From Ammoniphilus oxalaticus (lineage in GTDB: Bacteria; Bacillota; Bacilli; Aneurinibacillales; RAOX-1), in NCBI RefSeq assembly GCF_003609605.1, contig NZ_MCHY01000001.1, positions 1 to 64,000 of the forward strand: DNA of 64,000 nt, written 5' to 3'. The position numbers and the translations under genes were made by a program. The notes under the pieces are model-generated. The model was not told the origin of the DNA, did not search any database, and worked only from the letters and a program-made list of their open reading frames with translations. Positions 29,592-36,200 of this stretch are shown here, in pieces (the first letter of the stretch is position 1; every line of letters begins with the position of its first letter).

Positions 29592-30665
29592 TTGGACAGG
29601 GTGTGTTTACTCGTGTTAATCAAAGGGAGTTTCAAAAGAATTGAGCCAACAGCCGCCGCGATTATTATGGCAAACGGGATTTTCTTAATCGGCGCGATTG
29701 AAGCCTTTCCATTTTTGAACGATCGGTTAGGAAAAATTTTAGCGTTTCTTTTATTGATTTCCTGGATTGTCATCTATATCAGATTATCTGTCCAGTTTTT
29801 CCATCATCAATTCTTAATTCCATTTTTGAAAAATCCAATTCATTCGTTTGCAATGGGGACATGGATTGCGGGTGTATCCGTTTTATGTAATGTATTTCTT
29901 AAATATTATCCGAGCATGATCATAGTCACGCAAGCGATGGCTCTTATCAATACATTGTTATGGGTGTTCTTTTTAACGATGTGCTTTTATAATTTTAAAC
30001 AAATCTTGTTCAACGATCAAAAATATCCCGTTCATGGCATATTATTGCTATCCACGGTGGGAACGCAATCCATCATCGTTTTATTAAACAATGTTTTCTT
30101 TCAGTTGCCGATGATGGTGTCTAGCTTGATTATTACATTAGGGTTCCTCTTTTACCTGATTGGAGCTAGCTTGATTGTAAATAGGTATGCGTTGAAACGA
30201 GGATGGACACTTGTTGATGATTGGGCAAATACGAATTGTATTCTTCATGGCGCCCTATCAATTACAGGATTAGCGATTGTATCATCAAATACTTTTACAT
30301 CCGCGTTTGTTGCTGTTTTGTGGGTCGTTATATTTATTTTGTTAGTGATTGTTGAAACAATCGAAATCTTTCGAGCGGTCCTTCGGGTTAAGCGGTATGG
30401 ATGGAATAAAGGATTGTTTAATTACCATATTACACAATGGTCGCGGAACTTTACCTTTGGTATGTTCTATGCATTTACATTATTTGTACACAAAAACCCG
30501 TCTTACGTTATTCCTGTCCCATTACAAGCTTTTCAAGTTCAATTTTTGTCGTTTTGGTCGGTGATCGTCTTACTGACTCTGTTAGGACAAATCGGCGTGT
30601 ATCTCAAATACCGCCTTGAAAAACGAGCTTTATGGGCAAAGATGTCTCGTTCAATCTCGGGTTAG
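29592..30665 (+). CDS. Polytopic membrane protein resembling the TDT/SLAC1 anion channel superfamily
   Basis: About ten membrane segments over 357 residues. NPIHSFAMGTWIAG near residue 80 and HITQWSRNFTFGMFYAF near 285 recall the HP..SF..GT and W.SFTFPLG blocks of tellurite-resistance/dicarboxylate transporter (TehA, SLAC1) proteins, so transport of a small anion is plausible. The match is partial and made by eye. The TTG at 29592 has no clear ribosome site; GTG at 29601 or 29613 are alternatives. Single gene between terminators, in the gap between tyrS and rpsD. Confidence 0.55.
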   Translation: MDRVCLLVLIKGSFKRIEPTAAAIIMANGIFLIGAIEAFPFLNDRLGKILAFLLLISWIVIYIRLSVQFFHHQFLIPFLKNPIHSFAMGTWIAGVSVLCNVFLKYYPSMIIVTQAMALINTLLWVFFLTMCFYNFKQILFNDQKYPVHGILLLSTVGTQSIIVLLNNVFFQLPMMVSSLIITLGFLFYLIGASLIVNRYALKRGWTLVDDWANTNCILHGALSITGLAIVSSNTFTSAFVAVLWVVIFILLVIVETIEIFRAVLRVKRYGWNKGLFNYHITQWSRNFTFGMFYAFTLFVHKNPSYVIPVPLQAFQVQFLSFWSVIVLLTLLGQIGVYLKYRLEKRALWAKMSRSISG

Positions 30666-32323: not shown

Positions 32324-32407
32324 ACGCATTGCCACACGCCCCGTGATAGAATAGAAGGAAGTAATTTCTATCCTTTTGTAGTGAGCATGATTAGGAGGGA
32401 TTGGATC

Positions 32408-33034
32408 GTGAGGAAGCCTGTCAATCGCACAAAAGTACATATTGCGCAAGCGGCTATCGAACTTTTTTCTAGACAAGGCTTTGGGAGTACATCGATTCGA
32501 GAAATTGCCCAAAAGGCAAACGTCAATTCAGCCTTGATTAGTTACCACTTTAAAAATAAACAGGGTGTTTTGGAAATGATTATGATTGAATATTTCGAAA
32601 ACCTCTTTGAACGATTTGCTGTCCAGCGAATCGAACGGACAACAGAGGCGTTCAATTATTTTGACGAACTGATGAAGATAGTTCAACTACTAATCCGTTA
32701 TCAGTGTGAACACATAAAGGTGACGCGGATGATTCAGCGGGAACTGAGTGTGGATTCCACGCTCGTGCGCGAAGTAATGAGCACCTATATCGCGAAACTG
32801 AAAGCCTTGTTTACTTCACTTGCAGATGAAGGGATTTCAGCTGGACAATTTCGCGCGGATCTAAACCAAGACATGAAGTTGATTCACGTCTTAAGTAGCA
32901 TTTTCTTTCCTTATTTTAATCCGCAAATCATCCGCGAGGTTTTCTATGTGGATCCGATGTCGGAGGAGTATATTGAAACGTATATTCAGTATTTAGCCAA
33001 TATTTGGCGAAGTCAGTTTGTTCGAGAGAATTAA
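32408..33034 (+). CDS. refZ: TetR-family regulator RefZ (YttP)
   Basis: In B. subtilis RefZ binds chromosomal sites near the poles and helps position FtsZ at sporulation. N-terminal TetR helix-turn-helix: AAIELFSRQGF, then TSIREIAQKANVNSALISYHF. GTG 32408 is preceded by AGGAGGG at eight bases, giving 208 residues, almost the same as RefZ; an ATG-like extension to 32381 covers the ribosome site. Assignment rests mainly on synteny (rpsD upstream, EzrA-like gene downstream) and length, since TetR proteins look alike. Confidence 0.8.
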   Translation: MRKPVNRTKVHIAQAAIELFSRQGFGSTSIREIAQKANVNSALISYHFKNKQGVLEMIMIEYFENLFERFAVQRIERTTEAFNYFDELMKIVQLLIRYQCEHIKVTRMIQRELSVDSTLVREVMSTYIAKLKALFTSLADEGISAGQFRADLNQDMKLIHVLSSIFFPYFNPQIIREVFYVDPMSEEYIETYIQYLANIWRSQFVREN

Positions 33035-33157
33035 ATTCCCTTTCCTAAAATTGGTGAAAGTGTGGTTGCTCGCGTTTTTAGGACTGTTTTTAGCGAGTTA
33101 GCTCGAAGAACTGGACCGTTTTAGGGTTGCGGAATGAAATAATGACGAATTTTGTTG

Positions 33158-33189
33158 AAAAAGTTTCTGTTTAAGCAGGAACTTTTTTT
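33158..33189 (+). terminator. Probable terminator after refZ
   Basis: AAAGTTTCTG pairs with CAGGAACTTT (one G-T pair) around TTTAAG, followed by T-rich sequence. Apart from this and the promoter below, the 300 bases between refZ and the next gene show nothing further. Confidence 0.7.
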
Positions 33190-33285: not shown

Positions 33286-33336
33286 GAGTTTGCTAGAATA
33301 GACAATACACTTGACTGGAATGAGGAGAATTAGTTG

Positions 33337-35562
33337 ATGATTGCGAGATTCCGAAAGTCGTTTATGATAATATATGCAAGTTTATGGCTCTGTAGCAGTG
33401 TGGTTGGCGCGGAGAGTTTCCCTCCACAGACAGAGGGCATCGTCCAGGATGAAGAACAAGTGATGGATCCTTCACAAGTGAAGCAGTTGGGTGAGATCAT
33501 CAAGAAACTACCTGAAAAATACAAAGTTGTGATCATTCCTTCGACAGAGGAATTAACAACTCAACAATATACGGATGAATTATTTGTCGAATACGGTTTG
33601 GCCCGAGATCACGTGTTGTTCGTTTTCAATTTGGATAAGGCGGAGTTGGGGGTTAAAATTGGCGCGGGATTGCAGGCTAAAGGATTAACAGATGAAATTG
33701 TACAACAAACCGTTGATCATTTCTTTAGCCCTCATTCGAAACAAAAATCGTACATGAGCGGGATTTCAACGACGGCTCAAGGATTGAGTGACGTCATTCA
33801 GAAAGGTCCATCCGCGGCAACCGCTGCTCAAGGGCAAGGTTCAGTTGACCCCGTTCCACCGGGGAATAGTGAAGGTTCGGGCGGTTGGCTGTATGGCGCG
33901 ATTGGGTTGATCATTGCGATGATTGCTAGCGGTGTGTATGTTCAAATGCAACGCAAGAAGTGGACGCAGGAAATGGATGATCTTGAAGATTGGCTTGATA
34001 AAATTGAGGAAAACTTAAAGCGTCTAGAAGAAGATCCACAAGCGCAAGAAAACAGGAACGATCCGGATCATCCAAATCCTGTTTTACGTTTAATTGAACA
34101 AGCCCGCAACGAATCGTTGCCGCAAGCGGAGTTTACGCTATTAGAAGCCGATGCGATGTGTGAGAAATTTCGCTTTCGGAAGACAGAACAATTTGCGCAG
34201 GAAACAAAAAGTATCTTGTCCCGTGTCGATCATGAGATTAGTCAAATGCAAAGCAAGTTGTTTCAAGCTAAGGTCGCGGAAGAAGAATGCGAGCGTTTGT
34301 TGGCGGAAACAGAACAAGCGTGTGTTGCTCTTGAACGTAAAATGGACGAAATCAGCGCGAAATATGGCGTTTCTTTCAGGGAAATGCGTGACCTGTTAGC
34401 CCAGGCAAAAAACTGGTTGGAGACGAATCAGGCGCAGACGGACCTCGATACACCTGCTTTTCTCGATCAGTTAAGGGAACAAAAACAGATGATAATTGAA
34501 CATCTGAGAGAAGTTGAGCAATTTCCAAATTTAAGGCAGGAAGTCGCGGTCACGCTGGAGAGAGACTTAGCTCAATTACAGGAAGATTTGCAGGAAATGG
34601 TGGGCCATGGTTATCAAATTCCAGTTGAATTTTACCAAGATCATACGGCGCAGATGCGAAAAGAAGTTTTAGCTCTGCAACGATCAATCAAGAGCGGACG
34701 GATTCAAGGGGTATTAGGTCAAGTAAATGAACTGAAAGACCAGATCGATTCTTTCTACGATTTGATGGAAGAAATCGTGACCAAAAAAGCAAAGATTGTT
34801 CATTATCTACAAGAACTTCCTGACATGCTTGCGTCTTTAGAAACGGAAGAAAGACAGTTAACAGCGGAATTAGAAGAGTTGTCGTTACGTTACCGTGTCC
34901 AAGAAGGGGCGATCTTCAACTACTATTTAGAATTACAAGTTGCCTGTCAACAAGTTGGCGATCAATTGTTTTTAGTGAAACAAATGGACACAACGAATGA
35001 CCTTGATTTCATTCAAGCGATCGATTATTTAGAGGCGGCCCAAGAAACAATTGAAAAACTAATGTTGTTGCGCGAGGAAGCCTATGAAGAACTAGAACAA
35101 TTAAGAAAAGGCGAATTTGAGGCAAAAGACATCGTCGCTCAATTGCATACGGACCTCTTTCGTGTTGAACAACAAATACGGCGAAAAAATCTACCGGGTA
35201 TTCCGACTCAATTTATAGAGAGAATTCATCTAGGACAGCAATCTTTGTTTGAAGTAGAGGCGGTTTTAAATGAGGCGCCGCTTGACTTGCAAAAAATTAA
35301 CGCCTTGGTGAAAGATGCGCAAGCGGATGTTGAGAAGATTATAGCCGATACCCAACATATGTTTAGCTTAAGCGAGTCCGTCGAAGAAAAGATTCAAGCA
35401 ACGAATCGTTATCGAAGCCGATCGCAAGAAGTGAACGATTTGTTGAACGAGGCGGAAGAAGCGTTTCGAAATGCGGAATATGAGCGAGCGGATGAATTGG
35501 CGACAGAGGCTTACGAAGTAGCGATGCGTCGCGGTGGCGGTAGATCGAAATTTAAACGATAA
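33337..35562 (+). CDS. EzrA-like septation regulator with N-terminal TPM domain
   Basis: Order along the 742-residue chain: signal peptide (about 1-25), a TPM domain (about 30-150: EGIVQDEEQVMDP, then ELGVKIGAGLQAKGL), a Pro/Gly/Ser linker, a membrane helix (about 185-205), and more than 500 residues of charged coiled coil. Near the end stands the QNR-type patch IQATNRYRS (Gln687, Asn690, Arg691) characteristic of EzrA, followed by a helical EVNDLLNEAEEAFRNAEY segment as in EzrA. Gene position after refZ equals ezrA. EzrA controls FtsZ rings from the membrane; B. subtilis EzrA (about 560 residues) has no TPM domain. The ATG at 33337 or the TTG just before it follows GAGGAG. Confidence 0.8.
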   Translation: MIARFRKSFMIIYASLWLCSSVVGAESFPPQTEGIVQDEEQVMDPSQVKQLGEIIKKLPEKYKVVIIPSTEELTTQQYTDELFVEYGLARDHVLFVFNLDKAELGVKIGAGLQAKGLTDEIVQQTVDHFFSPHSKQKSYMSGISTTAQGLSDVIQKGPSAATAAQGQGSVDPVPPGNSEGSGGWLYGAIGLIIAMIASGVYVQMQRKKWTQEMDDLEDWLDKIEENLKRLEEDPQAQENRNDPDHPNPVLRLIEQARNESLPQAEFTLLEADAMCEKFRFRKTEQFAQETKSILSRVDHEISQMQSKLFQAKVAEEECERLLAETEQACVALERKMDEISAKYGVSFREMRDLLAQAKNWLETNQAQTDLDTPAFLDQLREQKQMIIEHLREVEQFPNLRQEVAVTLERDLAQLQEDLQEMVGHGYQIPVEFYQDHTAQMRKEVLALQRSIKSGRIQGVLGQVNELKDQIDSFYDLMEEIVTKKAKIVHYLQELPDMLASLETEERQLTAELEELSLRYRVQEGAIFNYYLELQVACQQVGDQLFLVKQMDTTNDLDFIQAIDYLEAAQETIEKLMLLREEAYEELEQLRKGEFEAKDIVAQLHTDLFRVEQQIRRKNLPGIPTQFIERIHLGQQSLFEVEAVLNEAPLDLQKINALVKDAQADVEKIIADTQHMFSLSESVEEKIQATNRYRSRSQEVNDLLNEAEEAFRNAEYERADELATEAYEVAMRRGGGRSKFKR

Positions 35563-35615: not shown

Positions 35616-35726
35616 CGTTTACAAAATTTGATTGGATAAAAAATGGTCCCAATGTCCTGAGTCGTATGATACAATTTATGTAGAGAAAAGTGAACCGCTT
35701 GATCTGTTTTTATGGGGGCAAGTTAT

Positions 35727-36200
35727 ATGAATCAACAACGATTTCTTTTCACGAAAATAACGATTTTTTGCATTTACTTATGCGCGGCTTATTGGATTTC
35801 ATTGCATTATCCGCCGCTCGGCATGTTGTTCTATCCTTCGCTGGGTTCATTCAGTGTAATCTTGATGGGTCAAGGAAACTACCTCCGAGAGCTCGTCGTA
35901 ATCGCGTTAGGAGCAACGATCACATCCGCGATTGGCAGCCTATTATATTTTTGGTATCCATCAATCTTCACCATGTTTGTAACCGCTTTCACCACGCTGT
36001 GGCTGATGCAAAAATTTTCATGGCGAGCGGCTCCAATCCTCGCTGTCGCTCTAATTCCCTTCTTTTCCCACCCGACTACAATCTGGGTGTTGCCACTTTC
36101 TGTTTTGTGTTCAGTGATCTGTCTGCTTCTTCCATTAGGTCTTGTCCAAAGGTTAGAAAAAAGACGGGTCGCGGATATAAAGCGGGGTATTTCTCAGTAG
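35727..36200 (+). CDS. HPP-family-like membrane protein
   Basis: Small integral membrane protein of 157 residues with four to five helices. HYPPLGMLFYPSLGSFS near the N-terminus recalls the HPP motif that names the family; some HPP proteins act in nitrite transport in plastids, but bacterial function is not settled. ATG 35727 is preceded by GGGGGCAAG; the frame is open five codons further to 35712. Single gene with its own terminator. Confidence 0.6.
   Translation: MNQQRFLFTKITIFCIYLCAAYWISLHYPPLGMLFYPSLGSFSVILMGQGNYLRELVVIALGATITSAIGSLLYFWYPSIFTMFVTAFTTLWLMQKFSWRAAPILAVALIPFFSHPTTIWVLPLSVLCSVICLLLPLGLVQRLEKRRVADIKRGISQ

Follow-up and report, generated by a model that had tools for sequence, protein, structure and literature searches.

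To our knowledge, nearly all work on EzrA has been done in species with its short form. In several Firmicutes its QNR motif binds FtsA (PMC12288466). The TPM domain has been proposed to be an assembly module and not a phosphatase (PMC11237479, PMC12419801), and one TPM protein, TLP18.3, docks on photosystem II from the lumen side (PMC13089150). For the YdjH-like proteins, in which TPM is joined to a coiled coil, a link to PspA has been described (PMC11237479). In the open-access literature searched, we found no paper that treats EzrA together with a TPM domain or TPM_phosphatase; automatic architecture listings may exist. Here we describe a gene of Ammoniphilus oxalaticus, lying in a stretch of 64,000 nucleotides that was analysed as a whole (the window), whose product combines the two, and we ask how such a protein relates to the EzrA of the textbooks.

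Results

The gene is a single reading frame with refZ as its upstream neighbour, which bears out the position for ezrA named in the original prediction, made from the DNA letters alone. The features of the locus are as follows.

33337..35562, + strand: TPM-EzrA gene, an uninterrupted frame of 741 aa from the ATG at 33337, the stop codon ending at 35562
33322..33327, + strand: Shine-Dalgarno-like GAGGAG before the ATG at 33337 or the TTG at 33334, from sequence
32381..33034, + strand: refZ, encoding a TetR-type forespore capture protein (NCBIfam equivalog NF037937, 192.6 bits against a cut-off of 180)
33157..33188, + strand: terminator-like stem-loop between refZ and ezrA, of a kind that shuffled sequences give as often

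The TTG at 33334, one codon 5' of the ATG, is an alternative possible start, and many relatives too have strong ribosome sites 5' of the signal-peptide start. Candidate sigma-70-type promoters for the gene were indistinguishable from chance, and no pspA was recognised among the translated reading frames in 15 kb around it. The region is flanked by two hydrophobic proteins of 357 and 162 aa (29592-30665 and 35712-36200 of the window), neither of which has a Pfam match.

The chain itself divides into the following parts.

33337..33414, + strand: signal peptide, residues 1-26 (hydropathy; an AxA-like ending conserved in alignment A1)
33442..33792, + strand: TPM domain, residues 36-152 (Pfam, PDB profile hits, AlphaFold, Foldseek)
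33793..33885, + strand: low-complexity, fast-evolving linker, residues 153-183 (pLDDT <50 at 158-185)
33886..33945, + strand: membrane helix, residues 184-203 (hydropathy; positive charges confined to the C-terminal flank)
33901..35517, + strand: EzrA match, residues 189-727, covering most of the membrane helix (Pfam, 4UXV profile, Foldseek)
35395..35415, + strand: QNR motif QATNRYR, residues 687-693 (alignments)

A signal peptide, an outside TPM domain, one helix and an EzrA coil had been predicted for this protein, and Pfam and hydropathy place all of them on one chain, the topology being a predicted one. Cleavage would probably fall between SVVGA and ES, leaving about 157 residues (27-183) outside; were the signal peptide to stay uncleaved, the topology would be unchanged, with TPM outside and the arch inside. 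The QNR patch is exactly as numbered beforehand, with Gln687, Asn690 and Arg691 sitting in IQATNRYR, and the chain ends in GGGRSKFKR, without a Gly/Ser-rich tail.

A profile search and a structural model had been suggested as checks, and both speak for the identity of the protein as EzrA. The Pfam models of EzrA (PF06160; 2e-62, 211.7 bits against a cut-off of 39.6) and TPM (PF04536; 8.1e-12, 45.7 bits against 22.1) each pass their cut-offs on the one chain, and a profile of long EzrA proteins (A1), run against the PDB, matched Bacillus subtilis EzrA (4UXV) at 2.9e-99 and also 5ANP and 2KW7. The NCBIfam EzrA equivalogs, which are lineage models, score far below cut-off (best 219 against 556 bits) and appear to be built on classical lineages. 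An AlphaFold2 model built from six orthologues has a mean pLDDT of 82.7, with the TPM region mostly at 81-91; a single-sequence fold of TPM alone was poor (pLDDT 46) and was left out of the evidence. With the former model Foldseek retrieved solved structures of both kinds, namely EzrA 4UXV at rank 1 (E 7e-6, TM-score to target 0.43, rmsd 11.6), where a loose overall superposition is expected if the curvature of the long helical arch is ill defined, and then BA41, PG_0361, cg2496, TLP18.3, Psb32 and TPM-like subunits of mycobacterial respiratory supercomplexes. For the TPM fold, the TM-score to target was 0.80-0.83 with 5ANP and 0.67 with 3PTJ.

A search of the whole genome (3.32 Mb, 99.9% complete) found no second EzrA; two weak matches were rejected, one being a chemotaxis receptor and the other a generic coiled coil. 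The genome also encodes a single TPM protein that stands alone and is of a different type. TPM-EzrA is the sole and true EzrA of this genome, and it replaces the classical protein, as had been proposed, rather than adding to it. On both points that had been named beforehand as able to overturn the proposal, the outcome was favourable: the coil does match EzrA, and the genome lacks a second normal ezrA.

EzrA was found in 193 of 300 Bacilli genomes. In the window's own order, whose named members are Ammoniphilus and Aneurinibacillus, the ezrA frame spans 734-758 aa in 13 of the 15 genomes, 637 in one and 567 in one. The families with long, TPM-bearing frames are, in our numbering, f1, f2, f3, f13, f20, f21, f23, f24 and f25, together with f26, where TPM is diverged; most families have frames of about 560-630 aa. 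Sixteen long proteins from eight families were aligned; TPM was matched at E<0.01 in 14 of them, and the layout of signal peptide, TPM, linker, helix and arch is common to all 16. The short controls, EzrA of Anoxybacillus amylolyticus and of Listeria, match only from residue 177-182 onward. The architecture is order-wide and present in about ten families of Bacilli, and the initial notion of a singular fusion has to be given up.

Several observations were made in passing. In f23 (L077-L080) the Pfam match of the long EzrA is interrupted near profile positions 300-400, and the chain has 50-100 additional residues in all; these may represent a spectrin-like repeat that was added or has diverged. 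One f5 protein counted as EzrA by Pfam (L084) was rejected as a TPM-coil protein with a Ser/Gly tail. In Anoxybacillus amylolyticus (L144, NZ_CP015439.1), a 258-kb replicon that is entered as a plasmid carries ezrA and thiI. A Listeria record listed as a plasmid, NZ_CP030101.1, also has an ezrA match; its size, 2.9 Mb, suggests a mislabelled chromosome.

An RpoB tree, with two genomes from other classes as its root, nests the families with short EzrA among those with the long form, and four trait changes suffice. The short family f32 joins the long family f20 at 100/98, and these join the other short families at 100/100; deeper nodes are weak. A tree of the EzrA coil alone, with TPM left out, agrees with the RpoB tree in the main groups. 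Because textbook short EzrA is nested in this way, the simplest history is one in which TPM was lost on at least four occasions; this is a parsimony argument from a single marker whose deep nodes are weak. We suggest that TPM-TM-EzrA is probably the ancestral architecture of EzrA, that to call it fused probably has the history backwards, and that the outside arm was most likely lost in Bacillales and Lactobacillales, leaving the textbook protein. The trees favour TPM loss in classical EzrA over the new fusion first supposed.

Losses can be seen close to Ammoniphilus as well. One member of the Aneurinibacillaceae (L017) has lost TPM outright, and in Aneurinibacillus sp. Ricciae_BoGa-3 (L094:5785-7683) and in L010 the signal peptide is kept and the TPM core deleted in frame. 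Both look to be natural deletion mutants, L094 showing TPM loss in progress. An EzrA-type TPM encoded separately was sought in the short-EzrA genomes tested, including L017 and L094, and none was found, only distant TPMs.

The TPM domains and the whole chain give two further views of this history. Most EzrA-linked TPMs (19 rows) form a group in the TPM tree, with TPMs of the YgcG and YdjH types apart from it (96/88); those of f26, f25 and f3 lie outside the main group on long branches, that of f26 badly diverged, and deep nodes are moderately supported. Although excluded from the EzrA-type profile, the f23 proteins reach 114-122 bits with it; no TPM of the YgcG/YdjH types exceeds 48. The nearest non-EzrA relatives of the main EzrA-type group are stand-alone TPMs of f9 (L095-L098), 215-aa proteins of signal peptide, TPM and helix that do not adjoin refZ. 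In f5 and f30 there are long TPM-coil proteins that carry Gly/Ser-rich tails and are located away from refZ; in f30 the neighbour of such a gene (L152:2734-6125) reads by eye as pspA, which fits the described link between YdjH and PspA. Alignment of the long-EzrA profile with these proteins extends through 698 columns, at E 1.4e-31. When their coils were scored with the model of the EzrA coil, three gave 60-80 bits and a fourth (L110) 16.2, where heptad-keeping shuffles reach at most 5.6 bits and reversed sequences at most 16.4. From the end-to-end alignment, EzrA seems to be part of an older TPM-TM-coil family.

Could TPM genes have been fused to classical EzrA late, two or more times independently and without common origin? 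TPM domains occur widely and move between architectures, and both the moderate deep nodes of the TPM tree and the outlying f26, f25 and f3 domains would allow it. We nevertheless regard such fusions as unlikely, since most EzrA-linked TPMs are one group apart from other types, the join point is constant, before the membrane helix, the coil tree agrees with the species tree, and homology to the TPM-coil proteins extends along the whole chain.

The conservation of TPM bears on whether the domain still has a function. Within the family, identity is 60% for TPM against 52% for the coil in one comparison and 55% against 46% in another; with other orders the values are 26-31% and 16-27%, and against Aneurinibacillaceae 18-23% and 28-29%, the coil here being better kept. 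Many pairs are saturated, and in those with measurable dS the dN/dS of TPM is 0.05-0.20; the linker evolves faster than TPM in most pairs. TPM is under strong purifying selection, like that on the coil. At the same time it is dispensable over long time scales, as the outright loss in L017 and the deletion in L094 indicate. These losses, together with the fact that classical EzrA works without TPM, could be taken to mean that TPM is a passive leftover and the cytoplasmic arch the working protein, possibly also made from an internal start. This reading, which we think about as improbable as independent fusion, sits poorly with a dN/dS comparable to that of the coil and with a domain that is often conserved at least as well as the coil while the adjoining linker drifts.

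The motif G-Y-G-[VL]-E is seen in the solved TPMs 5ANP, 2KW7 and 7TBR and is absent from all 18 aligned EzrA-linked TPMs, in which only D38 and G109 are invariant; TPM-EzrA keeps only its first Gly. With this hallmark missing, a catalytic role for the EzrA-linked TPM is unlikely. We therefore give somewhat less weight still to the idea that TPM acts outside as a phosphatase or nucleotidase, with EzrA merely placing it at the septum. The domain owes its name to an acid phosphatase activity reported for TLP18.3 of plants, a title cited by PMC11237479 calls a TPM protein of Bizionia an ATPase/ADPase, and BA41, the best TPM fold match, is also from Bizionia; against this, both PMC11237479 and PMC12419801 argue against phosphatase activity for TPM generally. 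Among the fold matches are subunits of photosystem II assembly and of mycobacterial respiratory supercomplexes.

That TPM-EzrA is itself a PspA-linked, YdjH-like stress protein and not the division protein is very improbable, for the full-length profile similarity to such proteins is outweighed by the QNR motif, the refZ synteny, the 4UXV match, its standing as the only EzrA of the genome, and the lack of both a Gly/Ser-rich tail and a pspA neighbour.

Discussion

The explanation that we prefer, and hold to be reasonably probable, is that A. oxalaticus has its EzrA in the ancestral architecture, with the arch bound by FtsA/FtsZ and TPM docking outside. The signal peptide would export TPM and the membrane helix would keep it tethered outside, while the spectrin-like arch would stay in the cytoplasm, to be recruited by FtsA to the Z-ring through QNR; each of the 16 genomes checked, that of A. 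oxalaticus among them, encodes FtsA. Less certainly, TPM may serve in docking or assembly, without catalysis, by binding a divisome or wall-synthesis protein on the extracytoplasmic side, much as TPMs dock in photosystem II and in respiratory supercomplexes. We infer such a role from the motif loss, the selection on TPM, the binding of QNR to FtsA, the presence of FtsA and the docking of TLP18.3. Once docked, TPM would let one chain hold the Z-ring and the wall machinery across the membrane, and it is plausible that an outside signal or the cell wall is linked to the Z-ring through TPM-EzrA.

More tentatively, we speculate that EzrA did not originally exist as a short tethered spectrin, but is a branch of an older envelope family of TPM, helix and coil, the other branch of which acts together with the PspA stress system. 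Among the deep-branching Bacilli it might still span the membrane as a strut and tie the FtsA/FtsZ ring to a wall-side partner, a connection that Bacillales and Lactobacillales would have given up.

A conserved and likely ancestral outside domain would offer a direct handle on how the Z-ring and wall synthesis communicate across the membrane. The long EzrA also suggests an origin for what has been an orphan family, and it gives TPM, whose function is disputed, a defined cellular setting.

Compared with the known systems, the Ammoniphilus protein shares with classical EzrA (B. subtilis 4UXV; PF06160) the helix followed by a spectrin-like arch, the QNR motif, the refZ neighbourhood and the single copy, but where the classical form has few residues outside it has a signal peptide and a folded TPM. 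The YdjH-like TPM-coil proteins (PMC11237479) have the same signal peptide, TPM and helix and a coil homologous to that of EzrA; they differ in their Gly/Ser-rich tails, lack QNR, lie away from refZ and have a TPM of another subfamily. The f9 stand-alone TPMs, for all their closeness in the TPM tree, are only about 215 aa long, have no coil and lie away from refZ, in genomes in which EzrA was not detected. BA41 (5ANP), TLP18.3 (3PTJ) and Psb32 (8C7I) likewise have the TPM fold in an extracytoplasmic or luminal place, whereas the Ammoniphilus TPM has lost G-Y-G-x-E and is tethered to a division protein.
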